Part shown: positions 18,901-48,334 of the stretch, one piece after another
How positions within the stretch are numbered: the first letter of the stretch is position 1
Layout: the number at the start of each line of letters is the position of its first letter
IMG/VR virus record: IMGVR_UViG_3300008108_004406
Coordinates: 1 to 52,199 of that record
Strand: one strand, 5' to 3'
DNA length: 52,199 nucleotides
DNA from: a virus
Made by a program: the position numbers and the translations under genes
Notes under the pieces: model-generated
What the model was told of the DNA's origin: nothing
The model's input: only the letters and a program-made list of their open reading frames with translations
Database searches by the model: none

Positions 18901-21900
18901 ATAAATTGTACTCCAAATGATACAACACCAGATGATGCTACTTATGGAATTACATCATTAACCGCTGATAGTGGTTCATTAAGTTTATTGGTTATTACAA
19001 AAGTTGTAACTTATTCAAAAGCAAAAGATGGAGTTCCTAATGTTGTAGTGGCAGTTACACCACCGGCTCAAACGATAGAAGCTAATTCAAAAGGTAGTGG
19101 TTCTGCTACCCCTAATTCTCTTACAATAACCGCATTAGAAGGTAATACTACTAGGTTTTCATCTTTAGGAACACCGACATATACAAATGGATTAAGTGGA
19201 ACTACGTCTACAAACACCTTAACATTTACTTCAAACGCATCATCAATGTCTGCTGATACGGGACAAGTAACTATTCCTGTAAATTATACCGATAGTGAAG
19301 GAACAACGGGAACAAAAAATGTAGTAGCTACAATATCTAAAGCAAGAAAAGCAGTACCAAGCGTTACTATTTCAGCAACTCCGCAAGCACAAACTGTTGC
19401 AGCAAACGCAGCTGGTACACAAACAGGAACATTACAAAATGTTACAATAAGTGCATTAGAAGGAACAAATTCTATGTTCACATCTATGTCATTTACGCCA
19501 GCCAATGCAGTTGGATTTTCAACTCTGCCAACTGTTAGTGGTGCCACTCTTACAATGACATCGGCTGTTATGAACGCAGATGAAGCATCGGTAACATTGA
19601 CAGTAGTTCATACTAATAGTGAAGGTACAACGGGTCAAACGCAAAACATAACAATAAGAGCTTCCAAAATAAAACAAGGAGAAAGTGGAGTTGTAGTAAA
19701 CTTAAATCCAGCATCACAAATTGTTACACGAAGTAATACGGGAACATATGGAACACCAACCGCATTTGTGGTTAGTGTTGTTGAGGGAGCCACAACTTAT
19801 ACATATAGTGCAACATTAGCTTCAGCTTCTACATTTAGAATTGTAAGTTTATCTGGGCATCAAGCACACACAAACGCATCTATAACACCAACAACTCCAA
19901 CAACAACCGCAGGAACAAATGTAACGTTTACGGTTGAATATAAAAACGCGGCTGGTACTCCGGCTTCTGTTTCACAATCACATAAAGTATCAGTAACATT
20001 AGATGGACAAACTGGACCTGGTGTGGTTCATACTGGAATTTGGGAAGCAGGAAGAGCTTATCAATATTCGGATGGGTTAACTTCTGGTGATGGACGAAGA
20101 GATACTGTATTGTGGAGTTCAAACGGAAACGCTCCATATGATACATATTATGCAGCAACTAGACAACACACATCAACAAATAACTCAAATTCTTTAACAG
20201 GTAGACCAGATTTAGGTGGGCCGTGGATTTCATTAGGAACACAAGATTTCTTTGTGGCTGCAAAGATAGGTTTATTTGAAGATTCATATGTTCAAAGTAC
20301 ATTAAACATTGGTACAAATAATAATGGTGGAGTATCATCTGCTAATATTACATTAGCCGGCGGTAGTACAAATCCGTATTTATCAATTGGACAATCAACG
20401 CAAGGATATGCAAATGATGGAATATTTTTGGGTAGAGATAGTAACGTTGCTAAATTTAGTATTGTAAACGGAACTACATCATTCTTAAAGTGGACAGGAA
20501 CTTCTTTGGAAATAAAAGGTTCATTAAACTTTACAAATCAATCATCGGTAGACTTGGGTGGATTTGGTGGATTTACAACACTATCAGGAAGTGTTAATAC
20601 CGCACAATTAACGGCAAATACAGGCGTTAGTAATGCAGCTACGGCACAAACAACCGCAAACGCAGCAACTGCATCGGCGGCAACTGCACAAACAACCGCA
20701 AACAATGCCGCAACCGCTGCTTCTAATGCATCAACTGCGGCATCAAATGCGCAATCAGCAGCAACAACAGTTGCTAATAACTTACAAGCAGTTGTTAATG
20801 GTAACTCTACTTTAACGGGTACTTTTATTAATGATAGTTTTATATATTCACCGGCTATTGCTGGTAATGCTGGCTATTTTGATGAAATATTTAGAGTAGG
20901 GCCAAATGGTATTACATTGGATGGTACAAATAAAAGTATATACGTTGGAGCGGGAACTTACAACAATGCAAACACTCCATTTTATTTCAAATCAGGTTCT
21001 ACTGATATATTTTCATTAGGCGATAAATTATCTTTTAATGGAAGTGCTTTATCGCTTACTGGAACTATGAATGCATCAACATTTAGTGGTGGAACTATTT
21101 CAATTGGTACAGGAAATAACATTTTTAAAGCGGACTCAAATGGTATATATTTGGGTAATACAACATTTGCTTCTGCGCCATTTAGAGTAACACCTGCAGG
21201 TGCACTAACTGCAACAAATGTTACTATTAGTGGTGGTGCTATTACAATTGGCTCTAACTTTTCAGTAGATACTTCTGGAAATATGGTTGCCAATAACGCA
21301 TCTATGACGGGTACGGTAACCGCAAATACCGGTAGAATTGGTGGATGGACTATTAGTGGTACTGCTTTGGAAGGTAGTGGTTCTGCTGGTAAAATCATAT
21401 TAGACCCATCTATACCATCTATGAGATTCAATAACGCCAACGGTGCAACAAAATTAACAATAAGAACAGGTCAGCTAACATATTTAGGAGGAAATAGTGT
21501 AAATCTTTCAATGCCATCCCAAACAACCGGTGCTGGTACTTATTATTCAAATGTGTATAATCAAACAGTTGGTGTTGTTCAAACTATATATATACCGGAT
21601 GCGGGTAGCTACGTTGGTACTCCATCATTTTCTGGAAATGGCTCTAACTTATATTATACGAGCCCAACTTTTAATGGATATTTTTCTGTTAATTTTTGGA
21701 TTGAGATTAAAGATGGACCTACATACGCAACTGCAAATAGTGTTGGATATATAAGTGTTGGTGGTGATACAACATATGGTATGCCGAATGAAACGGGAGT
21801 TATGGGCATATACTCATCCCTCACAACGTTATCATTTCCTACTGCGGGTACTTATTATTTGTTTCCTGTAAGGACAGTGCAAGGTAATTTTACAAGTGGA

Positions 21901-22602
21901 TATGTACAACTCGCTGGTGGTGGTTATACGGGGGGAAGTAGTAATTTTACCCCTGAAGTAGATTTTGGTGAATTAACAGAGTTTGGTTTACAAGTTGCAT
22001 CATCTGCAAATCAATTTGCAAAAATAGCTAGAAATAGTTCATATGCATTCGAATCTTTAGGTGCTATTTATGTAAAATCTCCGAATACTAGTACTTTTTC
22101 ATACTTCGATGGAGTTGTTCATCCATTTACAGGAAATACAAACGATTTAGGTACAAGTGGTAATAGGTGGAGATACATATATTCAAATAATCTATTACAA
22201 GTTTCAGATAGAAGATTAAAAGAGGATATACAACCAACTGATTTGGGTTTAGATTTTATAAACAAATTAAATCCTGTAAAATATAAAAGAATAGGAGCAT
22301 CTAGTCCAAGATTTCATTATGGATTGATTGCACAAGAAGTTACAGCATCTTTAGTAGATTATGGATTAACAACTTCTGATGCTGGATTTTTAGTAAGTTC
22401 TTCTGTAAATTATACTGCGGAAGAAATTGAAAAATTTAAAGATAGAAGAGATTGGGAAGTGTATGAGCGTGAAATGGCTGCATCTGATAGACAAGAGCTT
22501 GGTATTGCATATAATGAATTAATATCACCTATGATTAAATCAATTCAGCAATTATCTGCCAAAATAGATGAATTGGAAGCAAAAATAAGTGGAAGTATAT
22601 GA
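15973..22602 (+). CDS. Giant tail fibre with S74 intramolecular chaperone
   Basis: This is a 2209-aa fibre protein, probably the receptor-binding tail fibre. The N-terminal 150 residues (KITELPDTFTGGKNAFLIQG and onward) look like a virion-attachment domain. Many beta-sandwich segments follow, then three Ig-like repeats (from about 1022, 1129 and 1238). A GIWEAGRAYQYSDG module resembles carbohydrate-binding or fibre knob domains. An Ala/Thr/Gln-rich trimeric coiled-coil stretch (about 1539-1613) and Gly/Thr-rich shaft repeats come next. The C-terminus is a peptidase-S74 chaperone: SDRRLKEDI, with S2078 and K2083 as the Ser-Lys pair and FHYGLIAQEV following. Family knowledge predicts self-cleavage just before S2078, releasing about 132 residues after trimerisation. 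The last codons overlap (ATGA) the first glycosyltransferase gene. Confidence 0.9.
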   Translation: MAILKKTLFDESLETINVLVNDTDPNSRYFKITELPDTFTGGKNAFLIQGSPELVSDTIVKIQIRDSQGNIIYHEPGEGIPEYFEGTSKVVAVYIYPDTAFGPCTVTILGELSEYVSNGVRVPVPENWKDTYNVKWEKQINVNPILANTSKIRFYRRPKIDITESILPIYNRNVSRLTISGSLNGTPIVPSAGEDYRTFKGVSRYELSLNALSQFSESMEREIIEITGSGFNKIYSPTITDVTTNKKAFVDVPYYVTGSSLPNYYSVTAFTSASYTMSYDADVTLTDSAINSSFATINITDLDTFSGDVNRIKVYASSKNDLGDFQLLEDVQLESNELLLTSSFANQLNVRTGLFTNAILSSFWTSSVIETGVNLSVDNTTLLKSVLLTPQSDYSSSVGLFKFYNKESVNFTKNTEYQLDFTPLLSAAADTFGGIEVYMSGSAFTPTSLETNYGKKIGDLTTNTQFRKYDKQQINFKPDADGIGNLVYVVKGGVWHISDISLRAAQESSFSPNEITLTVNVPVKINNETFDFKFELYDINNNYVPVLLEEEFTFTGGNDVDVRRDLQLNVSNNSFNFSTASIFPQLVTIDFTKTGLTGSVTFQSQSVDVNGNLITGTPKPGTLDYVDVDTRTLSLPNFTGSSALGVTVGAITYTASCEDVNRYFTIFRIDQGAPARLFYATADKNNFVFDPDDRYKSDISDDYIDIRLVRQNLPSFESEGFNITSGSEVGTPPPLHEIESVGNATVYRLFVTSSTHQYSATPISGSGYVYDFGQSHYDFKYDTVDGDFTSSVTIDAVLKGDKGKGLIATSDANQFFYKMTDLSPIPSSQTITILAKRLNLGSLTNTITVTSGSGVPALSAPNYEGNGVTSYTISAGQSSNYQYSTGVQTYTFTAYDLNGIAYNDEVTLSSVIAESQISVNLTNENATLPARSTGFVASGSFVATSGSVSVKVGGEDIAREENLATNNRFDIISATGINCTPNDTTPDDATYGITSLTADSGSLSLLVITKVVTYSKAKDGVPNVVVAVTPPAQTIEANSKGSGSATPNSLTITALEGNTTRFSSLGTPTYTNGLSGTTSTNTLTFTSNASSMSADTGQVTIPVNYTDSEGTTGTKNVVATISKARKAVPSVTISATPQAQTVAANAAGTQTGTLQNVTISALEGTNSMFTSMSFTPANAVGFSTLPTVSGATLTMTSAVMNADEASVTLTVVHTNSEGTTGQTQNITIRASKIKQGESGVVVNLNPASQIVTRSNTGTYGTPTAFVVSVVEGATTYTYSATLASASTFRIVSLSGHQAHTNASITPTTPTTTAGTNVTFTVEYKNAAGTPASVSQSHKVSVTLDGQTGPGVVHTGIWEAGRAYQYSDGLTSGDGRRDTVLWSSNGNAPYDTYYAATRQHTSTNNSNSLTGRPDLGGPWISLGTQDFFVAAKIGLFEDSYVQSTLNIGTNNNGGVSSANITLAGGSTNPYLSIGQSTQGYANDGIFLGRDSNVAKFSIVNGTTSFLKWTGTSLEIKGSLNFTNQSSVDLGGFGGFTTLSGSVNTAQLTANTGVSNAATAQTTANAATASAATAQTTANNAATAASNASTAASNAQSAATTVANNLQAVVNGNSTLTGTFINDSFIYSPAIAGNAGYFDEIFRVGPNGITLDGTNKSIYVGAGTYNNANTPFYFKSGSTDIFSLGDKLSFNGSALSLTGTMNASTFSGGTISIGTGNNIFKADSNGIYLGNTTFASAPFRVTPAGALTATNVTISGGAITIGSNFSVDTSGNMVANNASMTGTVTANTGRIGGWTISGTALEGSGSAGKIILDPSIPSMRFNNANGATKLTIRTGQLTYLGGNSVNLSMPSQTTGAGTYYSNVYNQTVGVVQTIYIPDAGSYVGTPSFSGNGSNLYYTSPTFNGYFSVNFWIEIKDGPTYATANSVGYISVGGDTTYGMPNETGVMGIYSSLTTLSFPTAGTYYLFPVRTVQGNFTSGYVQLAGGGYTGGSSNFTPEVDFGELTEFGLQVASSANQFAKIARNSSYAFESLGAIYVKSPNTSTFSYFDGVVHPFTGNTNDLGTSGNRWRYIYSNNLLQVSDRRLKEDIQPTDLGLDFINKLNPVKYKRIGASSPRFHYGLIAQEVTASLVDYGLTTSDAGFLVSSSVNYTAEEIEKFKDRRDWEVYEREMAASDRQELGIAYNELISPMIKSIQQLSAKIDELEAKISGSI
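19036..20013 (+). repeat. Three tandem Ig-like repeats in the tail fibre
   Basis: Three units of roughly 107-109 residues start at PNVVVAVTPPAQTIEA, PSVTISATPQAQTVAA and SGVVVNLNPASQIVTR. Each continues with an LTITALEG, VTISALEG or VVSVVEG strand, and ends in a VNYTDSEGTTG, VVHTNSEGTTG or VEYKNAAGTPA strand. These are diverged tandem Ig-like domains in the fibre shaft. Confidence 0.7.
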
Positions 22603-23588
22603 TAGTATTCATAACAACGGGTTATAATGAAAATGTTATAGGAGGTTCTGATTTATGGGTGTCTAATTTTATAGAAAATATATTTCCATTAATAAAAGAG
22701 AAATTTGTTTTACTAATAGATGGTAGACCTTTAGTAAATAGAAAAGAAGATTTTTATAAATTATACACATTTGAAAATGATGGAAAAGTAGATGCCTTAT
22801 TGGAGTCTTGTGATAAAATAGTTTTTTTACATCATTCTTACAAACCAAATCCTATAATCAAAAAGTATTTACATAAAACTCACACAACCTTTGTTCATGC
22901 TTTTATTCCTGATATGATGGGTTTGAATTCTGATTATGAAAACATAATGACTAAAATAGATTGGGAATGGCAAAAGGAAATATTAGATAATTCGAATAAT
23001 ATAATTTGGATTGGATATGAAAACGATACTATACATGAAAGTTATCCACACGTTATTAACATTACAAATTATTATGAATGGAAAGAAAGCAAACCATTTT
23101 TAGGAATCATAACCAATAAAGTGGGATATGCGGCTAGGTGTGAAACGAGAAAAAACGCACATTATTTAGATTACATTCCATCGATTATATTTTCAAACAA
23201 ATATGACTATAAACGAATGTTAGAAAGTTCGAATACAAATTCAGATTATCATAGATTTATAGAATTTGATTATAGATTTCATAAAAAGTTTTTTGAAAGT
23301 AATTTTCAGATATTTCACGGATGTTATGAAAAAGAGCCATTTGGATACGCAATCTTTGATGCGGTCGATAATGGTAAAATTCCAATCATACATACGGAAT
23401 GGATGAAACATATTGATTACAAATATAGAGCAGGTAGTAAAGGTGAATTTCACCAAAGATATTTAAAAATATTAGAAGATGATTTCAATACTATAAATTT
23501 AGAATTTTCTAAATTAAGAGATGGATTAACCAAATACATTAATAAACAAAACTGGGTTACTGAAATATGCAAAGTCTTATCAATTTAA
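22599..23588 (+). CDS. Predicted GT-B-type glycosyltransferase
   Basis: This 329-aa protein is the first gene of the glycan island. It overlaps the tail-fibre stop codon (ATGA), so the two are probably translationally coupled. The N-terminus (MIVFITTGYNENVIGGSDLW) matches the opening strand and Gly-rich turn of GT-B transferases. The C-terminal half has FQIFHGCYEKEPFGYAIFDA, which resembles the donor-binding E-x7-E region of GT4-like enzymes (here E...EPFGYAIFDA). No signal peptide or membrane segment is seen, so it is cytoplasmic. Donor and acceptor are unknown. Its coupling to the fibre gene makes the fibre a plausible acceptor, which is inference. Confidence 0.65.
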   Translation: MIVFITTGYNENVIGGSDLWVSNFIENIFPLIKEKFVLLIDGRPLVNRKEDFYKLYTFENDGKVDALLESCDKIVFLHHSYKPNPIIKKYLHKTHTTFVHAFIPDMMGLNSDYENIMTKIDWEWQKEILDNSNNIIWIGYENDTIHESYPHVINITNYYEWKESKPFLGIITNKVGYAARCETRKNAHYLDYIPSIIFSNKYDYKRMLESSNTNSDYHRFIEFDYRFHKKFFESNFQIFHGCYEKEPFGYAIFDAVDNGKIPIIHTEWMKHIDYKYRAGSKGEFHQRYLKILEDDFNTINLEFSKLRDGLTKYINKQNWVTEICKVLSI

Positions 23589-24325
23589 ATATAGTTAAAG
23601 ATTATTTAACTAATAATCATATTATTAATGAAGATGGTAATATGATACATACTCCGATAAATTATCGTTGGACACATGGTGCAACCGATTTACACTTAGG
23701 CGATGGGTTGTTGGTATATTCTTTCATTCAATTTATTAGAGCAAAAATATGCGTATGTATTGGAACGGGAGGTGGATTTATACCACGTCTTATGACACAA
23801 TCACGATATGATTTATGGGAGCAGGGTATTTTTGAAGGAAAAAATACAAACGAATGGGGAGATATTGGAACTACAATTATCGTAGATGCGGCTAATGGTA
23901 TAGGTGGATATACCGATTGGACTGATGAGAATTCTTTTTTAAGAACACATTTTCAACCCCAAGTAATTTTAGAAACATCCGAAAGAGCATATTATGATTA
24001 TTTTGTAAGACAAGATATTAAAATTGATTATCTACACATAGATGGTGACCATTCATATGAGGGAGTTAAAAAAGATTTTGAACTATATTCACAAATAATG
24101 TCAGAAAACGGAATTATTACAATTCACGATATAGACCAAAAATACCAAGACACATTTATTATTACAGAAGAAGCTAAAAAAGATTTTGTTCCATTTGATG
24201 GCCCTGCTAAATTTATTAAAGAATTAGAAAAAAATAATGATTGGAATTTGGTAAATTTAAAAAATTTTCGTATGTTTACATCTAAAACCACAAGTACTGG
24301 TTTAACAGTATTAACCAAAAAATAA
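23567..24325 (+). CDS. SAM-dependent methyltransferase (Methyltransf_24-like)
   Basis: This 252-aa protein overlaps the end of the upstream transferase by 22 bp. The SAM-binding loop is CVCIGTGGGFIPRL (about residues 61-74). A later IDYLHIDGDHSYEGVKKDFE is the hallmark of the Methyltransf_24 / cephalosporin-hydroxylase-like group, followed by ENGIITIHDID. These enzymes usually O-methylate sugars in surface polysaccharides. The insertion with IIVDAANGIGGYTDWTDEN suggests a specialised acceptor site. It closes the unit that starts with the tail fibre, since a new candidate promoter lies between it and the next gene. Confidence 0.75.
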   Translation: MQSLINLNIVKDYLTNNHIINEDGNMIHTPINYRWTHGATDLHLGDGLLVYSFIQFIRAKICVCIGTGGGFIPRLMTQSRYDLWEQGIFEGKNTNEWGDIGTTIIVDAANGIGGYTDWTDENSFLRTHFQPQVILETSERAYYDYFVRQDIKIDYLHIDGDHSYEGVKKDFELYSQIMSENGIITIHDIDQKYQDTFIITEEAKKDFVPFDGPAKFIKELEKNNDWNLVNLKNFRMFTSKTTSTGLTVLTKK

Positions 24326-24350: not shown

Positions 24351-25208
24351 ATGGTTAAACCAAAATTGGTAACAGTTACAGGACACCGCACCAATACATT
24401 ACGACATCAATTGAATCACTATAAAGATATAGTGAGCGATATATTTGTTGTGGTATATGAAAACTCCGAAACAAATAAGAAAATAGAATTTGAGATAGCA
24501 GATATTTGTGCCGATTTCGGATTAAAAATTCACAAAGTAAAAACTCACAAACCATTTGATTGGGAAATGGTTACAAATCTATACAATGAAACTAAAATGC
24601 TATTCCCAAATGATTGGTGGATTGTAGCAGATGATGATGAATTTCAATTGTATTCAAAACCGATATCAGAAATAATAACCGATTGTGATATAAATGGATG
24701 GAAATTCGTAACTGGTGGATTTATAGATAGAATTGGTATTGATGGCGATTTTCCATCAATAGATGATGATACTAATATTTGGAAAGAGTTTCCAATGGCT
24801 GGATTTTTTAGACAACCGATGAGTGGAGCTTGTCCAAATAAAGTTACTTTATGTAAGGGTAATGTTCAAATATCAAACGGACAACATTATGCTATTATTG
24901 ATGGTGAAACTACTTGGAAGTGGAGAGGTTGGAATCATCCGCTAAGATACCCCGTTGATAAAAATTTCACACAAGTACATCATTTTAAATGGGATTCAAC
25001 AGTAAGAAGAAGATTAAAAGCAGTTGCAGATATTAATACACCATATTCATATTCAGATGAATATAGGAAAATGTATGAATCTCTAAAAGAGAATAAATTC
25101 ATAGTAGATATTTCTAATAAAGAGTATATGTTTGAGGAGTGTATAACTCCAAACTATGAAAACTATAAAAACTGGAATCATTTAAGTAAAAAAATAATAA
25201 GTTTATAA
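24351..25208 (+). CDS. Predicted GT-A glycosyltransferase (DDDE motif)
   Basis: This 285-aa protein starts with LVTVTGHRTNTLRHQLNHY and DIFVVVYENSE, the first beta-alpha-beta of a GT-A/GT2-like nucleotide-sugar domain. WWIVADDDEFQLY (about residues 88-100) carries the acidic metal-binding motif. A Trp/Gly-rich part (TTWKWRGWNHPLRYP) and HHFKWDSTVRRRL follow and may form the acceptor site. The family is not named with certainty; it resembles putative transferases of large phages and giant viruses. The stop overlaps the next start (TAATG), which suggests co-translation with the first galactosyltransferase-like protein. Confidence 0.6.
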   Translation: MVKPKLVTVTGHRTNTLRHQLNHYKDIVSDIFVVVYENSETNKKIEFEIADICADFGLKIHKVKTHKPFDWEMVTNLYNETKMLFPNDWWIVADDDEFQLYSKPISEIITDCDINGWKFVTGGFIDRIGIDGDFPSIDDDTNIWKEFPMAGFFRQPMSGACPNKVTLCKGNVQISNGQHYAIIDGETTWKWRGWNHPLRYPVDKNFTQVHHFKWDSTVRRRLKAVADINTPYSYSDEYRKMYESLKENKFIVDISNKEYMFEECITPNYENYKNWNHLSKKIISL

Positions 25209-26662
25209 TGAAAGGTGCTGAAAATAAAAAATTAGCAATAATTGTACCATATACCGAAAATAGGTTGGATGAAATGTATAAATTCTCCGGCCATATGGAA
25301 TATTTCTTAGAAGATAAAATGGATTATACTATTCATTTTATGAACCAAAAATATGCAGATTTATATTTTAATTATGGTAAATTATGTAACATCGGATTCG
25401 ATTTAGCAAAAGATGATAATGACTATTTCATATTTCACGATATAGATGTTTTACCGAAAGACGAAAGATGTGATTATTGGTATTCGGATAAACCAACGCA
25501 TTTGTGTTCAAATTTAAGACCTTATGCCGATTGGATTGGAGGAGCATTTAAAATAAATAAACAACAATTCCAAAAAATTAATGGATTTAGTAATGATTAT
25601 TGGGGTGGAGCATTTCATTGGAATGATTTACATTATCGATTAAATAAAAAAGGATACCTAACTCTCAATAAGTTCTTTACTAAAAATTTATATAAACCAC
25701 ACATACTAACAGATAGTAAGTTAGCTAATAGAGAAATTAAAAAAACAATATATCCATTGTTGTGTAGCGATAATACATGTGGTGTAATTAAATCCAATAA
25801 AGTTACCAATTTAACATTTAACGATTCATTTACAATATCGGTAAATGCATATATAAATGATGACCAAATTCAAAATGCCTGCATTGTTGGGAAAAAAGGA
25901 TATGATATTGGATTATTTGTGATGAAGAATGAAGCCATAGTTGCTCAAATTTGGAATGATAAAAAAGAATTACATCAAATATGGTTTCCACATAGAAACT
26001 ATTGTAACGAATGGGTTAATATTGGATTAACCATCGATTTAAATAATTCGGAAATGGTTTTATATTTGAATGGAAAAGATGTTAGTAGAGTAAATATATC
26101 ACCAAATATATTGGATACATCAATGAGTGATGTTTGGGTTGGTAGTTTAGAATATAAAAACAATTTAAGAGGAAAAATATCAGAACTACTAATATTTGAT
26201 TACGCACTAAAAGAATCAGAAATTCAAAAAATATATGTAGATGGGTACAAAGAAAAAAGTACAACGTTTGAACCTGTAATCAATATACCATTTGATAAAA
26301 GATTCGGAGATTTCTATGTAGATATTTCTAAGAAATCAAAAAGTAATTTAAGGGGAATATCAACCGGATTGATTTCAGAGATAGAAAAAGAAGATATAAA
26401 CGTATCATATAAATTTCCAATGCCCGAAGAATCCCCAGGATATTTTGAAATTTTGGAAAATTCAAAAAAATTCCTTAAATTAGAGAATTATAAGTGGGAT
26501 GAAAAAGATGAAAACTTTATAGAGAATGAAAATATATTCTTTTATGAAATTGCATCTGGCGTATTAAATACTGATAATTTTGGGTTAAATACTTTATCGT
26601 ATGACCTAAAGGAAACTAAAAAAATAAAAGAAAACATATTCATACATTCAATTAAAATTTAA
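25208..26662 (+). CDS. GT7 galactosyltransferase-like protein with nested LamG domain (degenerate site)
   Basis: This 484-aa protein is the first of three related proteins. Residues 10-165 follow the beta-1,4-galactosyltransferase (GT7) pattern: IIVPYTENRLDE, FNYGKLCNIGFD, FHDIDVLP (D78, D80), WIGGAF and INGFSNDYWGGAF. Where active relatives have WGWG-x-EDDDL, this protein has HWNDL (about 137-141), so the catalytic acidic pair is mostly missing. A LamG/concanavalin-like domain follows (about residues 190-340, with ISELLIFDYALKESEIQKIY at its end). A C-terminal piece (FGLNTLSYDL) corresponds to the DGLNSL-x-Y end of GT7, so the lectin domain appears inserted in the fold. It may be a non-catalytic, sugar-binding partner of the two intact copies. 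Confidence 0.75.
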   Translation: MKGAENKKLAIIVPYTENRLDEMYKFSGHMEYFLEDKMDYTIHFMNQKYADLYFNYGKLCNIGFDLAKDDNDYFIFHDIDVLPKDERCDYWYSDKPTHLCSNLRPYADWIGGAFKINKQQFQKINGFSNDYWGGAFHWNDLHYRLNKKGYLTLNKFFTKNLYKPHILTDSKLANREIKKTIYPLLCSDNTCGVIKSNKVTNLTFNDSFTISVNAYINDDQIQNACIVGKKGYDIGLFVMKNEAIVAQIWNDKKELHQIWFPHRNYCNEWVNIGLTIDLNNSEMVLYLNGKDVSRVNISPNILDTSMSDVWVGSLEYKNNLRGKISELLIFDYALKESEIQKIYVDGYKEKSTTFEPVINIPFDKRFGDFYVDISKKSKSNLRGISTGLISEIEKEDINVSYKFPMPEESPGYFEILENSKKFLKLENYKWDEKDENFIENENIFFYEIASGVLNTDNFGLNTLSYDLKETKKIKENIFIHSIKI

Positions 26663-26666
26663 TAAT

Positions 26667-26987
26667 ATGGCTACAAGTAAAAAAGAAGATGTAAAACAAG
26701 AACAAACCCCGCAACCTACCAATTTAGAATTAGTTGTGTTAGAAACCAGAAAAGTGAAAGCAATGGAAAAGATTGCAAATTCATTAGATGCGTTAACTAT
26801 TTGGTTTGAAGAAATTGATAAAAAAGATTGGAGTGAGAGAATTGCATACTATTTGTATGAGTTTCACAATTTAGCAAAAGCTAGAAGTAATGGCGGGGAT
26901 GAAGATACAGCAGAAGTAACTCAATCCGAATCAAATCCAATGCCTGTTAGAAAGGTAAGACCAAAAAAAGATATAGAAACAGTCTAA
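26667..26987 (+). CDS. Small helical protein between galactosyltransferases
   Basis: This 106-aa protein lies 4 bp after the first GT7-like gene and 8 bp before the second. Residues 18-75 are predicted helical and amphipathic (LELVVLETRKVKAMEKIANS, then LDALTIWFEEIDKKDWSERI). The N-terminus is Lys/Gln/Pro-rich, and the C-terminus is acidic then basic (RKVRPKKDIETV). I recognise no family and see no membrane segment. The placement suggests a small adaptor or scaffold for the transferases; this is a guess from context. Confidence 0.6.
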   Translation: MATSKKEDVKQEQTPQPTNLELVVLETRKVKAMEKIANSLDALTIWFEEIDKKDWSERIAYYLYEFHNLAKARSNGGDEDTAEVTQSESNPMPVRKVRPKKDIETV

Positions 26988-26995
26988 ATTAAAAT

Positions 26996-28423
26996 ATGAA
27001 ATTAGGAGTTATAGTTCCATATAGAGATAGACAAGAACATTTGGAAAAATTTATAAAGCAAATGCCTTCCTATCTTTCGAACAATGATATAGAATACGAA
27101 TTAATAGTCGTAGAGCAATCTGATAAAAAACCATTTAATAGAGGAAAATTATTAAATATAGGCTTTTTAGAAGCTAAAAAATTAGATTGTAATTACGTTG
27201 TATTTCACGATGTGGATATGATTCCGATTGATGTTGATTATTCATATTCAGATATACCACTACATCTTGCTACCGAATTTGAATTAGAAAACGATAAATC
27301 AAAAAATTTATCATTTGAAGATTATTTTGGTGGTGTAACTATGTTTTCAAATGAAGCATTTGAAAAAATAAATGGTTATTCTAATTTATATTGGGGATGG
27401 GGGTTTGAAGATGATGATTTATTATTTAGAAGTAAAAACGAAAATCTACCATTAGATACTACAATCATTGGAAAAAATGATGTAAAAAATGTATATGGAT
27501 TGTACTTCGATGGTTCGCAATCTCATATTAAAATAGAGAAAAAAGATTTATTAGATTTTTCAAAAAACAGAACCATATTAATAAGTTTTAAGCCAGATGA
27601 TTTGGTTTCAAATCCAAATTTGGAATATGATGATTTTACGGTATTTTCTATACCGGGATACGATACAAATATTTCTTTTAATTCTTTTAGAAGATATAAA
27701 GTAGATGTTTGGGATGATAAAAATAAATGTATCTCAATAAATTCGGAAATACTTACAAACCATTTTACACAAATAGCTTTAGTAATAAATGCTGAAGAAA
27801 AAACAATTTCTTTTTATAAAGATGGTGAGTTAGTTGGTAGAGATTATTACAAAGGAAAATTAAAAGATTATTCTAAGGAGCAGCATTTTTATTTAGGAGT
27901 AGGAGACCCGAAAAGAAGTAATCCAAATTATTTTTCAGGAACAATTTCCGAATTTGCAATATTCAACGATATATTGAGTCCTAAAGAAATTCAAACATTA
28001 TCAGAAACGGCTTTAGAAAATTCTTTATTAGAAAATTTTAGAGGCTACAATTCCGCTGAAAATTTAATGCTCTATTATGATTCAAAATTTGTTAGAAACA
28101 ATTACATAATGGACTTAACTTTTAATAAAAATGATGGACAAGTATTTAATTCTCATTTTATTAAATCAACAGAATCATTGGGTAAAATGATAGATGTTCC
28201 ATATAGACGTGTTGGATTATTTAAACTATTATCACATAAGACAAATAGTTGGGATGGTGGTAGATGGGTTCATAATGAAACCCGTATAAATCAGATAAAA
28301 TTCTTAAATGAAATAAAGCAAGATTTATATGATACAAAAAAGGATGGATTAAATAGCTGTATGTATCAGATTATTGGTAATTCACATATACAAAAGTATC
28401 ATCATTTATCTGTATTAATTTAG
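26996..28423 (+). CDS. GT7 beta-1,4-galactosyltransferase-like, LamG domain nested in catalytic fold
   Basis: This 475-aa protein has an intact GT7 active-site set: GVIVPYRDRQEHL, FNRGKLLNIGF, FHDVDMIP (D72, D74), YFGGVTMF and YWGWGFEDDDL (E138, D139-D141). The order matches vertebrate and bacterial beta-1,4-galactosyltransferases. After EDDDL comes a LamG-like domain (about 160-340: YGLYFDGSQSHIKIEKKDL to ISEFAIFNDILSPKEIQTL). Then the rest of the transferase resumes, with VPYRRVGLFKLLSHKTNSW, RINQIKFLNEIKQDLY and DGLNSCMYQI (D450). The nested lectin domain may hold the growing glycan. The natural donor is probably UDP-Gal or UDP-GalNAc by family; the acceptor is unknown. Confidence 0.82.
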   Translation: MKLGVIVPYRDRQEHLEKFIKQMPSYLSNNDIEYELIVVEQSDKKPFNRGKLLNIGFLEAKKLDCNYVVFHDVDMIPIDVDYSYSDIPLHLATEFELENDKSKNLSFEDYFGGVTMFSNEAFEKINGYSNLYWGWGFEDDDLLFRSKNENLPLDTTIIGKNDVKNVYGLYFDGSQSHIKIEKKDLLDFSKNRTILISFKPDDLVSNPNLEYDDFTVFSIPGYDTNISFNSFRRYKVDVWDDKNKCISINSEILTNHFTQIALVINAEEKTISFYKDGELVGRDYYKGKLKDYSKEQHFYLGVGDPKRSNPNYFSGTISEFAIFNDILSPKEIQTLSETALENSLLENFRGYNSAENLMLYYDSKFVRNNYIMDLTFNKNDGQVFNSHFIKSTESLGKMIDVPYRRVGLFKLLSHKTNSWDGGRWVHNETRINQIKFLNEIKQDLYDTKKDGLNSCMYQIIGNSHIQKYHHLSVLI

Positions 28424-28426
28424 TAT

Positions 28427-29899
28427 ATGGCACATAAGTTAGGAGTATGCGTACCATACAGAAATAGAGAAGCTCATATGAATGAGTTTGTTCCTAAAGT
28501 ATCTAAATTCTTAGATGATAGAGGAATAAACCATACCATATATTTAGCACATCAATGTGATGAACATCTTTTTAATAGGGGATTGATGAAAAATGTTGCT
28601 GCTAAATACGCATTTGAAGATGGGTGTGATTACATTGTATGGCATGATATTGATATGGTGCCAGAAGATGAGAGTTGCGATTATTCGTACAATTCGGATA
28701 ATCCAAAACACTTAGCAGTTCGTATTTCACAATCCGACTATGGATTAAAATATTATGAATATTTTGGTGGTGCAGTTTTATTTACAAAAGAACAAGTCCT
28801 AAAAACCAATGGTTATTCAAATGATTATTGGGATTGGGGTATGGAGGATGATGATTTATTTTGGAGATGTGTAAAAGAAGGAATGGCTGATAGGCAGTTT
28901 ATAGAGTTTGATAAAACAAAAACTGCTGCTATTTTTGATGGTAAAACATCTATGATTAAAATACCATGCAATGAAGATATGCGATTTGCAATAAGTAGTT
29001 CTCATACAATATCAATATTAGTAAAGGCTGACCAGCAGATTGAAAAAGTACCCATTTGGTTGATAGGAGATGAAAATAGAAAGTTTGTTGAATACCCCAT
29101 ATTTAGAAAGCCAGGTTACGATTGGGGTGTATCATTTAATAATAGCAGAGCTTATACAGCCATGCTATGGAACTCACATAAAGAACATTTATATCAATGG
29201 TTTAAACGATATGAAGGTGAGTGGAGTTGGCTAACAATGGTTGCAGATGATTATAACAAAAAAATGCACTTTTATCTAAATGGTAGAGAGAGTAGCGCAA
29301 GACATGGTACGGGTACAGAATCTCCACTAAGATACGAACATACTTTAAAAAGATATGGGAGCGAACCATTCTATATAGGATATACCCCATCGGTAGCTGG
29401 ATTTGAACCAAACGCCTTTTTTAAAGGCGAAATTGCAGATATTAAATTTTGGAACAGAGCTTTAGGTGAAGCTGAAATAGAATTATTACACAAACAATTC
29501 TCAACAAAGGGATTGTTATTACATTATAATTTTAAAGAATTTGATGAGATGGGTAGAGTTATAGACCAATCCGAATTAAATGATGGAATATGTAAAAATG
29601 TTTCATTTGAAGATAGAGATATAAAAATTTCTGATGTAATTTTACCATATAGACGAGATGGTAAATTTCTATGCTTACCGCATCAAACCGAAGGATTAAT
29701 TAATGTTGGTGGAATAGAAAAGTGGGCAAAAGGAGAAACCACAGCTGCAAACGAAAGAAGATATGTGTTAGAAATGCAGCAAGGTAAAATAGATTATAAA
29801 AACGATGGTATGAGTAATTTAGATGAAAAATTTAAATATCTAAATACACAAACTATATTTGATAAACATAAGATGATTAACGTTCATTGTATAAAATAA
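28427..29899 (+). CDS. GT7 galactosyltransferase-like with nested LamG domain (second intact copy)
   Basis: This 490-aa paralogue lies 3 bp after the previous gene. The catalytic motifs are present: GVCVPYRNREAHMNEF, LFNRGLMKNVA, WHDIDMVP (D74, D76), YFGGAVLF and YWDWGMEDDDL (E140, D141-D143). A LamG-like domain (about 165-345, ending IADIKFWNRALGEAEIELL) is again placed between EDDDL and the C-terminal transferase segment, ILPYRRDGKFLCL then NDGMSNLDEKF (D460). The middle domain differs from that of the previous gene, which suggests old duplication or module exchange. Three such genes in 4.7 kb imply several different acceptors or sequential additions. Confidence 0.8.
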   Translation: MAHKLGVCVPYRNREAHMNEFVPKVSKFLDDRGINHTIYLAHQCDEHLFNRGLMKNVAAKYAFEDGCDYIVWHDIDMVPEDESCDYSYNSDNPKHLAVRISQSDYGLKYYEYFGGAVLFTKEQVLKTNGYSNDYWDWGMEDDDLFWRCVKEGMADRQFIEFDKTKTAAIFDGKTSMIKIPCNEDMRFAISSSHTISILVKADQQIEKVPIWLIGDENRKFVEYPIFRKPGYDWGVSFNNSRAYTAMLWNSHKEHLYQWFKRYEGEWSWLTMVADDYNKKMHFYLNGRESSARHGTGTESPLRYEHTLKRYGSEPFYIGYTPSVAGFEPNAFFKGEIADIKFWNRALGEAEIELLHKQFSTKGLLLHYNFKEFDEMGRVIDQSELNDGICKNVSFEDRDIKISDVILPYRRDGKFLCLPHQTEGLINVGGIEKWAKGETTAANERRYVLEMQQGKIDYKNDGMSNLDEKFKYLNTQTIFDKHKMINVHCIK

Positions 29900-29903
29900 T
29901 AAA

Positions 29904-31322
29904 ATGGCAGAAGATAAAATTATAAAAGGAGAAAATCCACTGTATGTTCAGGTAAAAAACGAATTAGATTCCATCGGACATGGTATGTGTTTGGCAAAGT
30001 GGACACAAGTAACTATGCAATTACAAAGTGGACATAACCATTCCTGCCATCACCCCGCTACTCATAAAATTTCAGAACAAGAAATAGCAAGAAATCCATC
30101 TGCACTTCATAATACTCGTTTCAAAAAACTAAAAAGAAAAGAAATGTTAAGTGGAGCAAGGCCTGCTGAATGTGATTATTGTTGGAATGTGGAAGATAAT
30201 TCGGATAGATTTAGTGATAGAATATTTAAATCATCTGAAAGTTGGAGTTGGGAACATAAAGAAGAAATTTTTAATTCAGATTGGAGAGATGATTATAATC
30301 CAAAATATGTTGAAGTTGCATTTTCAAATGTTTGTAATTTCAAATGCTCATATTGTGGACCATCATTCAGTACAACTTGGATGGAAGAAATTGAGCAATT
30401 CGGTGGATTTCCAACTACTGATAATTTCAACGATATTACTTGGATGAAGCGTGAAGATAAAATGCCTATTCCACAAAGACAGCATAATCCATATGTAGAA
30501 GCATTTTGGAAATGGTGGCCAGAGTTATATAGAGATTTACACACCTTCAGAATCACCGGAGGTGAGCCATTATTATCAAAAGATACTTGGAGTGTTTTGG
30601 ATTACATTATTAGTGAAAAGAATCCAAATAGAAATCTTAAATTAGCAATTAATTCGAATTTAGGTGTACCTGATGCGTTGATTGATAAATTGATTGAAAA
30701 AATAAAGAAAATTGAAGATGAAGGTAGAGTTAAAGAATTGATTCTATTTACATCCGCTGATACTTGGGGACAACAAGCTGAATACATTCGAACTGGTTTA
30801 GAATTTAATCGTTTTTGGGATAATATTAATAAAATTCTTTTAAACTGTCCGAAGATAGTTGTAACCTTTATGGTTACATATAATGCTTTATCCGTTTTTA
30901 ATTATGATAAATTGATAAAAGAAATTTATAAATTAAAAGAAACATATGCAAGTCCATATCGTTATTGGAATTCGGCAACTTTCTTAGATTCATCATATCT
31001 ACGATACCCACTACATCAAACGGTTCAAGTGTTACCACATCAGTTTTCAGAAAAAATAATGAACCAAGCTAAATTGGCAACATTCTTTTCAACCCCATCT
31101 TTTAATTCTACTCAAATTGGATATTCAGATGTTGAGGTTCAAAAGATTAAAAGAATTTACGATTGGATGCTAGCACCAAAAGATTCGATGCAGCAAATGA
31201 AAAATAGACATAACTTCTTTAAATATTTTAGTGAACATGATAAACGCAGAGGTACTGATTTCATTAAAACGTTTCCGGAATTAGAAGAATTTTATCACTT
31301 TTGTTCAACTATTACAATATGA
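29904..31322 (+). CDS. Radical-SAM protein with auxiliary-cluster (twitch/SPASM-like) cysteines
   Basis: This 472-aa protein has the radical-SAM cluster motif CNFKCSYC (C144, C148, C151) and the downstream FRITGGEPLL motif (GGE binds SAM). The N-terminal 100 residues carry further conserved-looking Cys/His (MCLAKW, HNHSCHHP, ECDYCW) that could ligate auxiliary iron-sulfur clusters, as in twitch-domain radical-SAM proteins. The substrate is unknown. In a glycan cluster it could modify a sugar, or install a modification on the protein that receives the glycan. It is followed by an ATGA overlap with a free-standing LamG-like gene, which may serve as its substrate-binding partner. Confidence 0.85.
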   Translation: MAEDKIIKGENPLYVQVKNELDSIGHGMCLAKWTQVTMQLQSGHNHSCHHPATHKISEQEIARNPSALHNTRFKKLKRKEMLSGARPAECDYCWNVEDNSDRFSDRIFKSSESWSWEHKEEIFNSDWRDDYNPKYVEVAFSNVCNFKCSYCGPSFSTTWMEEIEQFGGFPTTDNFNDITWMKREDKMPIPQRQHNPYVEAFWKWWPELYRDLHTFRITGGEPLLSKDTWSVLDYIISEKNPNRNLKLAINSNLGVPDALIDKLIEKIKKIEDEGRVKELILFTSADTWGQQAEYIRTGLEFNRFWDNINKILLNCPKIVVTFMVTYNALSVFNYDKLIKEIYKLKETYASPYRYWNSATFLDSSYLRYPLHQTVQVLPHQFSEKIMNQAKLATFFSTPSFNSTQIGYSDVEVQKIKRIYDWMLAPKDSMQQMKNRHNFFKYFSEHDKRRGTDFIKTFPELEEFYHFCSTITI

Positions 31323-32068
31323 GTTTAAAAATAAACGCAGAAAATTTATATTTGGTACTCCCATCAAATGTATCATTTAAAGAATCTAATATAGGTGATT
31401 CTATGGAAAACGATTTTACTTTATTTGCTAGAGTAAAAATTGATAAAGAAACTTTAACAGAAAACGAATCGTTTATTATTTCCAGAAGTGGAATGCATTC
31501 AGGCATATCTATATTTAAAAATCAGTTAGATAAAGTATTTTTACAATACACATATTGGTTTGAAAATGAAGAAGATGGAAGTAAATCGGTTAAGCAAGTT
31601 CAAATAGAACTAAAAGATTCAGATTTAGATGATTTTATAGATGTATATATGACAAACGATGATGCGAAAGCAAAAATATCTTGCTATCTTAACAATAACA
31701 TCGTTGGTAGTATAGTGTATTCAGGTCTTAATAAACTTTCCTATGTAGATGCTCCGTATTGGATAGGATGTGGTAGTATGTTTGGTGATGAAAACACTAG
31801 AGGTATAGGCGATTTTGAATATGATATTGTCTTTGCAATTAAGAAAAAATTATTAACGTTGGATGTTCAAGATATTTTAAAAAATTATGAAGCTAAGTAT
31901 AGTAGAAGAGCATTTGGAAATTATAAAATATTCAATCCAAATTGGGAATTAACCAAATACTTTGCTTTCTTTTGTAATTTTGAAATATCAAATAGATACA
32001 AACTTTGGAATTATGCATTTAATGGAAACTATCCACAAATCTATATTGATGGAAACGTATATTATTAA
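31319..32068 (+). CDS. Free-standing LamG/concanavalin-like protein
   Basis: I take ATG 31319, which overlaps the radical-SAM stop codon (ATGA), rather than a TTG at 31301; this gives 249 aa. The sequence has the strand pattern of LamG-like lectins: FTLFARVKIDKE, SFIISRSGMHSGISIF, VFLQYTYWF, KAKISCYLNNNIVGSI, YWIGCGSMF, and GDFEYDIVFAIKKKLLTL at the place of the usual domain end. It resembles the lectin modules nested in the galactosyltransferases but has no catalytic domain. It probably binds the glycan or a peptide acceptor. No secretion signal is visible. Confidence 0.6.
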   Translation: MSLKINAENLYLVLPSNVSFKESNIGDSMENDFTLFARVKIDKETLTENESFIISRSGMHSGISIFKNQLDKVFLQYTYWFENEEDGSKSVKQVQIELKDSDLDDFIDVYMTNDDAKAKISCYLNNNIVGSIVYSGLNKLSYVDAPYWIGCGSMFGDENTRGIGDFEYDIVFAIKKKLLTLDVQDILKNYEAKYSRRAFGNYKIFNPNWELTKYFAFFCNFEISNRYKLWNYAFNGNYPQIYIDGNVYY

Positions 32069-33007: not shown

Positions 33008-33811
33008 ATGAAATTAGCTGTTTGTTTAAGTGGACAATTAAGAACTTGGAAAGATTCCTACAAAAGTTGGGGATTATTCTTTGATGAACTTCAAAAATCA
33101 CCTATATTAGATGGTGAAGAATTAGAAGTTGATTACTTTGTACATACATGGGATTTTAATAGTACACCATTTGCGGTTTGGACAAAACAACAATGGGATG
33201 CTGGTAAATACCATTCAGGCTTTGAACAACCTCCAGCGGAAGGTGTTACAAAGGAAGAAATAGATGAATTTTTGGAAACTATAAAACCAAAACAACACAT
33301 CATTGAAAACATATTCAAAAGTACAAGTCGTAAAGAAGAATTAGATGCCAGAACTCAATGGAGATTGGGAGATTACACAAAGTGGTCACCAATAAGTTGG
33401 GCCGGTTCTCAACTATATGGAATTATGAGAGCAGCTGAAATGAAACGAAATTGGGAATTAGCTTATGGATTTGAATATGATATGGTGGTAAGAATGAGAA
33501 ATGATTTAAGTTTTGATTATTTAAATCGTATGATATTTGTTAACGATTTTGAAATGCCAAAAGAAAAAACATTATATTCGGTTCATAGTTTTAATACAGA
33601 ATACTTTCCACATGATGCGGTTGGTGATATATTTTTCTACGCAGATAGTTTTACATATGATATTATAGCAAACGCATACAATTATTTACCACAAATATCG
33701 CCTGATATATTTCCACCGGATGTTAAAGTTGAATCGATATTAGCATACTTAATACGAATATTTGATATTAAAAACGTAAGATTAAAAATTGACCCAGATA
33801 TAATAAGATAA
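33008..33811 (+). CDS. SGQ-x-RT family putative glycosyltransferase (copy 2)
   Basis: This 267-aa paralogue has LAVCLSGQLRTW, DYFVHTWDFN, YDMVVRMRNDLSF and GDIFFYADSFTYDII in the same order as its neighbours. It differs in the metal-loop-like motif (RNDLSF instead of RPDIL) and lacks the C-terminal tail of copies 1 and 3. A Trp-rich stretch (WRLGDYTKWSPISWAGSQLY) precedes the central motif and may form the acceptor pocket. It follows copy 1 by 3 bp and precedes copy 3 by 1 bp, so this trio was probably made by tandem duplication. Confidence 0.58.
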   Translation: MKLAVCLSGQLRTWKDSYKSWGLFFDELQKSPILDGEELEVDYFVHTWDFNSTPFAVWTKQQWDAGKYHSGFEQPPAEGVTKEEIDEFLETIKPKQHIIENIFKSTSRKEELDARTQWRLGDYTKWSPISWAGSQLYGIMRAAEMKRNWELAYGFEYDMVVRMRNDLSFDYLNRMIFVNDFEMPKEKTLYSVHSFNTEYFPHDAVGDIFFYADSFTYDIIANAYNYLPQISPDIFPPDVKVESILAYLIRIFDIKNVRLKIDPDIIR

Positions 33812-33812
33812 T

Positions 33813-34709
33813 ATGAAAAAGTTAACAACATATAATATAGCAGTTTGTTTAAGCGGACAATCACGTACTTGGAGAACGGCTAAGGAAAACATTCTTAACT
33901 ATTTTGATGTAAAAATTAATACACATAAAAATTGTAAAGTAAATGTTGACTTCTTTATTCACACTTGGGATACAAATAGTTACAGAGATAAAACACAACC
34001 GAGATGGGAAAATACTGATTATGTAATAGATAATCCAAATGAAGCTGATGAAATAAAATTTGCTTTTAAACCAAAGTTGATGGAGTATGAACCATTTAAT
34101 TCGGAAGGATTTATTGAAGCTTGGGATGGCATGTTTTATAGCTTTATGAAAAGCGTAGAACTTAAACGAAGATATGAGTTAATGAAAGATATCACATATG
34201 ATATGGTTATTAAAACCCGATTTGATATAAACTTTCTACAAGAAGGTGTTAATAAATTTGGGTTACCCATAAATAAATTCTATGTACATCCGATAAAACC
34301 ATTTACGGCATATGCCTCATCGGCAACTCCTACAAGATTTCCAAACGAATTCAATCAGGTTTGCTTTGATGATGTATTCTTTTATGCAGACTCATCCACT
34401 ATGGATATAATAGCACAAATTTACAGATGGTATAAAAAAATAATGGAAAAAGGTAGACTACAAAAAGTTACAGGGGAGTTCGTTGAATTTCCCGAATTCT
34501 ACTATGGACCGGGTACACTTTTATACAAATATATGACTAATTGGAATATTCATCCATATGGAGAACATGCTAATCCATACTATGTAGTTAGAAAAGAAGC
34601 AGAAGATAGGGGATTGCATAGCATTAATGATTGGCAAGAAGTATTCAACGTATCAAAAGATTGGTATGAAAATGGTTATTTTGAAAAATCAAAAGCTGAT
34701 ATACATTAA
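33813..34709 (+). CDS. SGQ-x-RT family putative glycosyltransferase (copy 3)
   Basis: This 298-aa paralogue carries IAVCLSGQSRTWR, DFFIHTWDTN, YDMVIKTRFDINF and DDVFFYADSSTMDIIA. It is closer to copy 2 than to copies 1, 4 and 5 in the last motif (FFYADS). The C-terminal 60 residues (PEFYYGPGTLLYKYMTNW and beyond) are extra compared with copy 2. It starts 1 bp after copy 2 and is followed after 2 bp by the first SGNH-like gene. The cytoplasmic location and glycan role are inferred from family context. Confidence 0.58.
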   Translation: MKKLTTYNIAVCLSGQSRTWRTAKENILNYFDVKINTHKNCKVNVDFFIHTWDTNSYRDKTQPRWENTDYVIDNPNEADEIKFAFKPKLMEYEPFNSEGFIEAWDGMFYSFMKSVELKRRYELMKDITYDMVIKTRFDINFLQEGVNKFGLPINKFYVHPIKPFTAYASSATPTRFPNEFNQVCFDDVFFYADSSTMDIIAQIYRWYKKIMEKGRLQKVTGEFVEFPEFYYGPGTLLYKYMTNWNIHPYGEHANPYYVVRKEAEDRGLHSINDWQEVFNVSKDWYENGYFEKSKADIH

Positions 34710-40268: not shown

Positions 40269-40693
40269 TAATGTGGCCTGGGTTTAGTAGACGAGATTAC
40301 TTAAAAGATAATGGAGTATTTAAAAAGGTAGGGGGGTTTAGATTAGCACATGAAAGAGATGTTATTTGGAAAAACGAAGAAGAAGATAGATTATTTGTTG
40401 AACTAAGAAATGATTATCAGGATTTAATGGAGTTTTGGGAAGCTTATAAATTGGTTGAAATGACCGCAAAACTATATAATATAAATGTTATACATACCAT
40501 TTCCGGATATTATTACGATATATTTAAAGAACTAAAACCGCATCTTAAAAATACAATTGATTATAGCACATTTTTTGAACCATTGGATTGTTATCAAACC
40601 GATTTTGCAGCAAGAGATAATCATCACCCTGGCGAAAAATGGCATTTGGAATTTTCAAAAAAGTTTTTTATCTTTGTAGATAAAAAATTATGA
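40229..40693 (+). pseudogene. SGNH hydrolase-like protein (copy 5), C-terminal fragment
   Basis: This frame gives 154 aa with KPDLVLIMWPGFSRRDY and, near the end, DNHHPGEKWHLEF with the catalytic-type Asp and His. It lacks block I, which sits in the overlapping frame upstream. The first eight or so residues after ATG 40229 are likely translated junk. Together with 39993-40268 it forms one interrupted gene. Its end overlaps the next gene by ATGA, so coupling to the downstream SGQ-x-RT gene is kept. Confidence 0.6.
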
Positions 40694-48333: not shown

Positions 48334-48334
48334 T

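Follow-up and report, generated by a model that had tools for sequence, protein, structure and literature searches.

Three consecutive viral genes with a divided GT7 core

The DNA studied here, the virus record IMGVR_UViG_3300008108_004406 of IMG/VR (52,199 bases, referred to as the window), contains three consecutive and uninterrupted open reading frames (ORFs) in each of which a LamG domain lies within a glycosyltransferase sequence of family GT7. The three genes, g1 (25208..26662, 484 amino acids), g2 (26996..28423, 475 amino acids) and g3 (28427..29899, 490 amino acids), and all their parts described below are located on the + strand. In all three proteins, Pfam finds Glyco_transf_7N, Glyco_transf_7C and Laminin_G_3 in this order and above the curated cut-offs. 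Moreover, bovine beta4GalT1 matches residues 2-160 of g2 with an E value of 4.8e-30 (about 1e-28 for the human protein). The catalytic motifs are all retained in g2 and g3 and are degenerate in g1. The assignments of g1 and g2 are based on Pfam, on hidden Markov models (HMMs) and on structural models, and that of g3 is sequence-based (Pfam and HMM). The matches of the three proteins in PHROGs were all weak (best E value 3.7e-5), and PADLOC, which would indicate a role in defence, returned nothing for them and only weak matches for two proteins encoded downstream, a radical SAM (S-adenosylmethionine) protein and the protein starting at 31301.

An HMM of the GT7 core, built from 40 insert-less GT7 proteins of 192-633 residues, aligns with each of the three proteins in two collinear stretches. 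In g2, HMM positions 4-158 correspond to residues 2-154 (204 bits) and positions 159-231 to residues 404-473 (22.5 bits), the adjacent positions 158 and 159 being set 249 residues apart. In g3, positions 3-155 fall on residues 3-153 and positions 153-223 on residues 402-481, and in g1, positions 2-156 fall on residues 6-152 and positions 158-222 on residues 407-476 (10.4 bits, i-Evalue 0.017 at Z 1000). The two stretches meet at positions 158/159 in g2, 155/153 in g3 and 156/158 in g1, with 248-254 residues intervening. The GT7 N-terminal part extends over 25208..25663 in g1 (residues 1-152, also by Pfam), 26996..27457 in g2 (residues 1-154, with the VPY start, DVD at 72-74 and EDDD at 138-141) and 28427..28885 in g3 (residues 1-153, Pfam and HMM). 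The C-terminal part is found at 26426..26659 in g1 (residues 407-484, HMM and model), 28205..28420 in g2 (residues 404-475, with RRxGxFxxLxH, the metal-binding C-His candidate at 414, and then DGLNS) and 29651..29896 in g3 (residues 409-490, HMM). The Pfam match to GT7C stops early, at profile positions 11-60 of 78 in g2, 1-61 in g3 and 15-43 in g1; in other nested copies, its last position varies from 43 to 71, and an insert-less viral protein (L164) matches 1-77.

The tails behind LamG were also recognised by a C-terminal HMM made exclusively from insert-less proteins, with 41.3 bits for g2, 30.5 for g3 and 20.3 for g1. The tail of g1 is the weakest of the three by sequence, and it scored 14.2 bits in another C-terminal HMM comparison. 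A chance resemblance can be ruled out, as none of 3000 shuffles of each tail equalled the real score. Across all loci described below, this HMM detects the tail in 191 of the 202 ORFs with GT7N and LamG; among 1721 other ORFs it matched a single one, and this is the truncated end of a nested gene (L222). The C-terminal segment with RxGxFxxLxH and a DGLNS-like motif is present in g2 and g3, displaced by the insert, and insert-less GT7 proteins of viruses and bacteria (e.g. L090, L091 and L164) have the same C-terminal motif. Within roughly the first 155-160 residues of g2, L090 shows 52% identity and L091 53%.

The original prediction, made from the DNA alone, had proposed that LamG is nested inside GT7 in all three genes and that the separated parts are contiguous in known GT7 proteins. 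Both proposals hold. When a profile of 81 nested proteins is compared with beta4GalT1, the main match covers residues 65-217 (E value 3.7e-51), and a second collinear match, weak if taken alone, covers residues 234-273 (7.0 bits, conditional E value 0.00013, i-Evalue 24). The two stretches are thus only 16 residues apart in beta4GalT1 (217 to 234), whereas a domain of about 230 residues lies between them here. The same is seen in the pool of 294 distinct GT7N ORFs from all loci and the window: the gap to the C-terminal part is 213-339 residues (median 249) in the 198 ORFs with LamG and 3-14 residues (median 6) in the 84 ORFs without it. None of these 282 proteins is intermediate; the remaining 12 have no C-terminal match (four with LamG, eight without).

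Predicted structures of g2 and g1

AlphaFold2 models were obtained for g2 from 81 natural sequences (alignment A1; mean predicted local distance difference test (pLDDT) 94.9, predicted TM-score (pTM) 0.89) and for g1 from 53 sequences (alignment A3; mean pLDDT 93.3, pTM 0.87). VIA-align superposes beta4GalT1 (1tvy_A, residues 180-398) on g2 1-475 over 213 residues with a root mean square deviation (rmsd) of 2.3 and a Z score of 26.9, and residues 174-398 of the same chain on g1 1-484 over 210 residues (rmsd 2.5, Z 25.0). Likewise, beta4GalT7 superposes end to end on g2 (Z 26.1) and on g1. Of the 213 aligned residues of g2, at most about 161 can come from the segment ahead of the insert, which leaves about 50 or more for the segment behind it. 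The predicted folds of g2 and g1 are therefore those of a GT-A enzyme like beta4GalT with a LamG/pentraxin-like beta-sandwich as the insert.

The inserted domain resembles the LamG module of PAPP-A most closely (Z 21.9 for about residues 165-396 of g2, about 23 for about 180-401 of g1), followed by BACOVA_03559 (Z 21.5 for g2, 22.0 for g1) and the pentraxins PTX3 (Z 18.7 for g2, 20.4 for g1) and CRP (Z 17.2 for g2). The likeness is one of fold, whereas the identity to these proteins is about 15% and the matched chains are not transferases. In g2, the strand at residues 154-172 enters LamG and the strand at 387-401 leaves it, and the domain spans about residues 165-396 (27488..28183) by structure as well as being found by Pfam. 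Its size is about 230 residues, and the 170 residues estimated originally correspond to the Pfam core only. The insert of g1 covers residues ~178-401 (25739..26410; superposition with PAPP-A over 179/180-401, Laminin_G_3 over 195-340). For g3, the Pfam core lies at residues 172-351 (28940..29479), and the structural domain is probably larger.

The original prediction had named a complete GT7 fold ahead of the lectin domain, or a separately folding C-terminus, as findings that would speak against nesting. The models of g2 and g1 have neither, and they support a GT7 fold that is incomplete ahead of the lectin-like domain and a C-terminal segment that does not fold separately. In both models, beta4GalT1 is aligned from the first to the last residue of the protein, as would be expected if the C-terminal strands join across the insertion, and the middle domain of the g2 model matches LamG and pentraxin folds, as had been anticipated for this gene. 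The same split architecture is supported for g3 by its sequence. In BFVD, none of the 50 matches listed of 1415 covers both domains well (highest TM-score by query length 0.41), an absence that excludes nothing.

The active site and the decay of g1

In alignment A1, DxD (72-74) and EDDD (138-141) precede the insert, and a histidine at 414, present in 72 of the 81 rows, follows it. Metal site I of beta4GalT1 is described as consisting of Asp254, His347 and Met344 (PMC7565966), Asp318 and Asp320 of its DDD sequence are reported as essential (PMC4202792), and a survey of GT-A enzymes names the metal-binding histidine C-His (PMC7185993). By our own reading of its place in the motif, His414 of g2 would correspond to His347 of beta4GalT1 and thus to the C-His. 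As this residue follows LamG, the metal site would be completed only by the segment behind the lectin-like domain. The survey lists three hypervariable regions of the GT-A fold, beta3-alphaC, beta6-beta7 and the region after beta8 (PMC7185993); as we read it, the insertion point between the xED helix and the C-His strand is in none of them.

The three genes differ in their catalytic residues. g2 and g3 match GT7N and GT7C above the cut-offs and carry DxD, xED (EDDD) and C-His, and it had been expected that all three genes would have the motifs through EDDDL. This applies to g2 and g3. In g1, HWND takes the place of EDDD and an Asn stands in the C-His column, so that g1 has the Pfam match and the fold and lacks the xED catalytic base and the C-terminal histidine. 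Similarly, the VPYRR or PYRR segment expected after the insert is replaced in g1 by MPEESPG, which is still GT7-like by HMM and model. With the rows grouped by hand from gene position and identity, DxD, ED and C-His occur together in 67 of 68 rows of the g2 and g3 types and in none of the eight g1-type rows; the latter all lack the C-His and retain DxD in six cases. A further type at the g1 position has all three motifs in one of five rows, and DxD and the histidine in all five. Because its catalytic base and C-His are lost, g1 is probably a pseudotransferase, a non-catalytic member of the family. In one g1-type gene (L020, 2233-3723), DxD is gone (SPY) but ED is kept, a second and distinct route of catalytic decay.

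Distribution and history of the nested genes

A scan of viral sequences with g2, in which the best 80 of 176 relatives were retained, yielded at least one ORF of more than 350 amino acids with GT7N and LamG in all 80 loci: three such ORFs in 30 loci, two in 44 and one in six. Some of the 80 contigs are near copies of each other, and the loci are thus not independent lineages. The presence of long nested ORFs in every retained locus rules out an assembly artefact. A scan of genomes (80 loci kept from 118 relatives, 47 of them examined) gave seven nested loci (L084-L089, and L104 with its 5' end cut) and 40 without the insert. A viral scan with the insert-less alignment A2 (best 80 of 518) added both nested and insert-less kinds, and of two viral scans that each started from one bacterial protein lacking the insert, one gave no locus and the other three. 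Identity to g2 falls to 39% within the g2 type and to about 30% in the g3 type.

In a tree of the glycosyltransferase part, calculated from 107 rows (52 nested, 55 insert-less) after clustering at 65% identity and exclusion of the 12 ORFs lacking a C-terminal match, the nested proteins form one side of a branch with a Shimodaira-Hasegawa-like approximate likelihood ratio test (SH-aLRT) value of 90. One change suffices to explain the distribution of the insert on this tree, compared to a mean of 36 for shuffled states, and several independent insertions are not needed. The tree has three long branches, the longest being L197. The divergence of the N-terminal glycosyltransferase part correlates with that of LamG (r 0.89 for all pairs of the 81 rows, 0.73 within the g2 type), as expected for an insert that is inherited together with its host domain. 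Judged from these sequences, one insertion followed by duplication is the simplest history.

The T4-type capsid family Gp23 is matched by seven of 14 records, i.e. six of 11 virus records (89-289 kb) and one of three metagenome-assembled genomes (MAGs), and in this MAG the Gp23 gene sits on contigs other than those of the nested genes. No named phage carries a relative of g2 detectable by tblastn at an E value of 1e-5 among 50,697 records, although records very near the window's genome may have been excluded, and g3 gave only two matches to named phages, with E values of 8 and 10. Three of the nested MAG loci (L084-L086) have their genes in the order seen in the phages and probably represent phage contigs that were binned in error. 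A purely viral architecture is nevertheless contradicted by L088, a diverged nested copy (3941-5431) on a 66 kb bacterial MAG contig, where it adjoins genes for a GT2-domain protein, an ATP-binding cassette (ABC) exporter and a leucine-rich repeat (LRR) kinase. In the phylum of this MAG, two of 167 genomes match at 1e-15, and one of the two is the query's own.

The genes surrounding g1, g2 and g3

The three genes belong to a conserved neighbourhood, for which the following counts include only viral loci with enough sequence on the respective side. Directly upstream on the + strand lies a GT2-like gene (24351..25208; PF13704, below the cut-off), which precedes the nested genes in 77 of 78 loci, and ahead of it a methyltransferase gene (23567..24325, +; Methyltransf_24 by Pfam), found upstream in 46 of 47 loci. 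Downstream, g3 is followed by the gene of a twitch-domain radical SAM protein (29904..31322, +; NF033640, 349.9 bits). A radical SAM gene starts within about 340 bases after the last nested gene in 71 of 74 loci, and the other three have one farther on. Some loci (e.g. L025, L034 and L065) contain two or more consecutive radical SAM genes.

The next gene encodes a stand-alone LamG-like protein (31301..32068, +; E value 2e-7 to the HMM of the insert), and 59 of 72 loci have such a gene behind the radical SAM gene. These calls rest on the insert HMM at E values up to 0.01 (no better than 2e-3 to 6e-3 in eight of these loci) or on BLAST with the window gene, and the best of them reach 5e-24 with the HMM; examples are L021 (8295-9131) and L037 (5829-6584). 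The window protein has no Pfam LamG match, and of three copies from elsewhere two were below the cut-off and one had none. From these similarities, the stand-alone gene is possibly a relative, a donor or an offshoot of the insert.

Between g1 and g2, an ORF of 106 amino acids (26667-26987) recurs at the same place in some loci (e.g. L004-L008, L010-L014 and L016-L018). Genes for a nucleotidyltransferase, an epimerase and a dTDP-sugar isomerase are present at 42-50 kb of the window, indicating that the phage probably has its own means of producing or modifying sugars. In this region, an ORF of 212 amino acids (48194-48832) matches Epimerase over no more than positions 1-131 of 240 and overlaps a dehydrogenase E1-like ORF, and it is perhaps broken or split.

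Discussion

The best overall explanation of these data, which we consider rather probable, is a LamG domain that was inserted once into a GT-A enzyme of family GT7, that helps to hold the acceptor, and that belongs to a phage gene set for glycan synthesis. According to their motifs, g2 and g3 would be metal-dependent GT-A glycosyltransferases of the (inverting) GT7 kind. In a single ancestral event, the LamG beta-sandwich would have entered between the xED helix (EDDD) and the C-His strand, giving a chain that runs from the donor site with DxD and EDDD through a strand into LamG, and back through another strand to the C-His and the closing C-terminal strands. With this order of the chain, one active site would be assembled from both flanks, with LamG held close to it in sequence by two connections. 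The alignments and predicted models together demonstrate this nested path of the chain and an active site drawn from two flanks. The donor sugar nucleotide and the metal would bind the GT7 pocket formed by both flanks, as judged by the motifs and the model. By analogy, LamG most likely keeps its ligand, which would be the acceptor (a glycan or a glycoprotein) or the growing product, in a constant position relative to the active site, and its grip would set the site and number of sugar additions. We propose this role because of the lectin domains arranged in series in GalNAc-transferases and GnT-IVa, as described in PMC9296478, and because of the split PGAP4 (PMC5785973). That LamG binds a sugar is suggested by its fold; moreover, "galactosyl" is a family name and the donor is putative. 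To judge from the neighbours, the methyltransferase, the GT2-like protein, the two to three GT7-LamG proteins, the radical SAM protein and the stand-alone LamG protein probably build a glycan on the particle or on the surface of the infected cell. g1, with its observed loss of residues, would serve as a non-catalytic binding or partner subunit. In T4-like marine phages many radical SAM genes have been reported, in an article that mentions neither glycosyltransferases nor LamG (PMC5332604).

Comparison with known enzymes places the novelty in the inserted domain, its site and the family, since split GT-A folds are already known. The proteins share the GT-A fold from end to end with beta4GalT1 and beta4GalT7, and g2 also shares DxD, EDDD, C-His and DGLNS. 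PGAP4 (GT109) is the closest precedent: there, too, the GT-A fold is interrupted, and the interrupting module has been proposed to carry the active site towards the acceptor. However, this module is a membrane hairpin of tandem transmembrane helices rather than a globular lectin-like domain, and the enzyme is eukaryotic and belongs to another family (PMC5785973). Extra sequence within a GT-A fold is also described for GnT-II (inserted loops, PMC9296478) and GT88 (multi-helix insertions, PMC8476585), but these are loops or helices and not a lectin-like domain. Conversely, the GalNAc-transferases (GT27), GnT-IVa/MGAT4A (GT54) and POMGnT1 combine a GT-A domain with a carbohydrate-binding domain in one chain, as do the proteins studied here, but in those enzymes the lectin stands in series, at the C-terminus in GT27 and GT54 and at the N-terminus in POMGnT1 (PMC9296478). 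In the literature searched, i.e. titles and abstract openings with few subscription journals, we found no description of a glycosyltransferase that harbours a nested LamG or lectin domain. The main text of a survey of domain insertions contains none of the words "lectin", "concanavalin" and "jelly", and this survey names the C-terminal domain of GT28 as a common inserted module (PMC13114784). The claim of a new architecture is therefore justified for a lectin-like domain nested in GT7, as far as the literature searched extends, and too broad for split GT-A folds in general. In the sources consulted, the lectin domains of GT-A enzymes are arranged in series; here one is nested between the halves of the active site, a natural case in which docking of the acceptor and catalysis may be mechanically linked. 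The nested form was apparently inserted once and retained through duplications in large environmental phages, and it points to an unstudied, conserved set of phage genes for glycan building.

Several points weigh against this explanation. LamG domains often bind proteins, and the inserted domain is less conserved than the N-terminal part of its host, though hardly less than the C-terminal part: within the g2 type, the mean pairwise identity is 0.37 for LamG, compared to 0.60 for the N-terminal and 0.40 for the C-terminal glycosyltransferase part. This lower conservation fits varied specificity and weak constraint equally well. The models are predictions, and their input alignments are made of the nested family itself. 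VIA-align gives only the first and the last aligned residue, and local alignments by Foldseek to beta4GalT chains span only about 155-191 columns. Similarly, hhalign of the nested alignment A1 against the insert-less A2 gave the N-terminal block and no tail. The C-terminal HMM misses 11 of the 202 ORFs with GT7N and LamG; six of these are of the g1 type (L009, L015, L017, L020, L021 and L022), L029 and L082 are cut by contig ends, L024 is a shortened ORF, and L214 and L235 complete the list. Finally, the tree was a quick search assessed by SH-aLRT only, without bootstrap or an approximately unbiased (AU) test.

The strongest competing explanation, to which we assign a limited but real likelihood, is that LamG acts structurally or in the formation of a complex. 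In this case, the insert would serve oligomerisation or tethering, uniting g1, g2, g3 and the stand-alone LamG protein or binding a virion protein instead of an acceptor glycan. This would agree with the common protein-binding function of LamG domains, with the retention of the stand-alone gene in 59 of 72 loci, and with the persistence of the insert in g1 despite the lost catalytic residues. On the other hand, the insert has active-site residues close by in the sequence at either end, with the xED helix ahead of it and the C-His strand behind it, and inserted loops of GT-A enzymes are described as generally aiding acceptor interactions (PMC7185993). An extended form of the acceptor-holding explanation seems to us about as unlikely as this rival: LamG would be part of the acceptor site itself and make an inseparable two-site enzyme, and repeated duplication would have produced several such enzymes and, in g1, a dead paralogue acting as a lectin subunit. 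Together with the radical SAM and stand-alone LamG proteins, these would constitute a phage machinery for glycosylation that has not been described before and that acts on a surface structure of the phage or host.

It is improbable that g1, g2 and g3 are all repurposed sugar-binding proteins without transferase activity. Such an explanation could point out that the transferase activity of g2 and g3 is putative and that the fold has outlived the catalytic residues in the g1-type rows, none of the eight having all motifs; it is difficult to reconcile with the retention of DxD, ED and C-His in 67 of the 68 g2- and g3-type rows, over identities to g2 down to 39% in the g2 type and about 30% in the g3 type. 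The least probable explanation, a full GT7 domain followed by an independent LamG and an unrelated tail, fits the row of Pfam matches without any GT7 match past LamG and the restriction of the Foldseek and hhalign alignments to the first part, but was rejected on the split HMM match, the superposition of both models with beta4GalT from end to end, and the 191 of 202 tails that match the C-terminus of insert-less GT7 proteins, compared to one of 1721 other ORFs.

Further reading frames of the window

Upstream of the glycosylation genes, a protein of 2209 amino acids (15973-22602), probably a tail fibre, carries Peptidase_S74 (an endosialidase chaperone) near its C-terminus. The large ORF 1851-7196 (1781 amino acids) has a weak match to Laminin_G_3 at 5202-5606 (13.9 bits, below the cut-off). 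Farther downstream, the ORFs starting at 33008 and 33813 (33008-34709) resemble tandem paralogues, and the second of them matches phrog_13607, a family of unknown function, as does the ORF 40690-41598.

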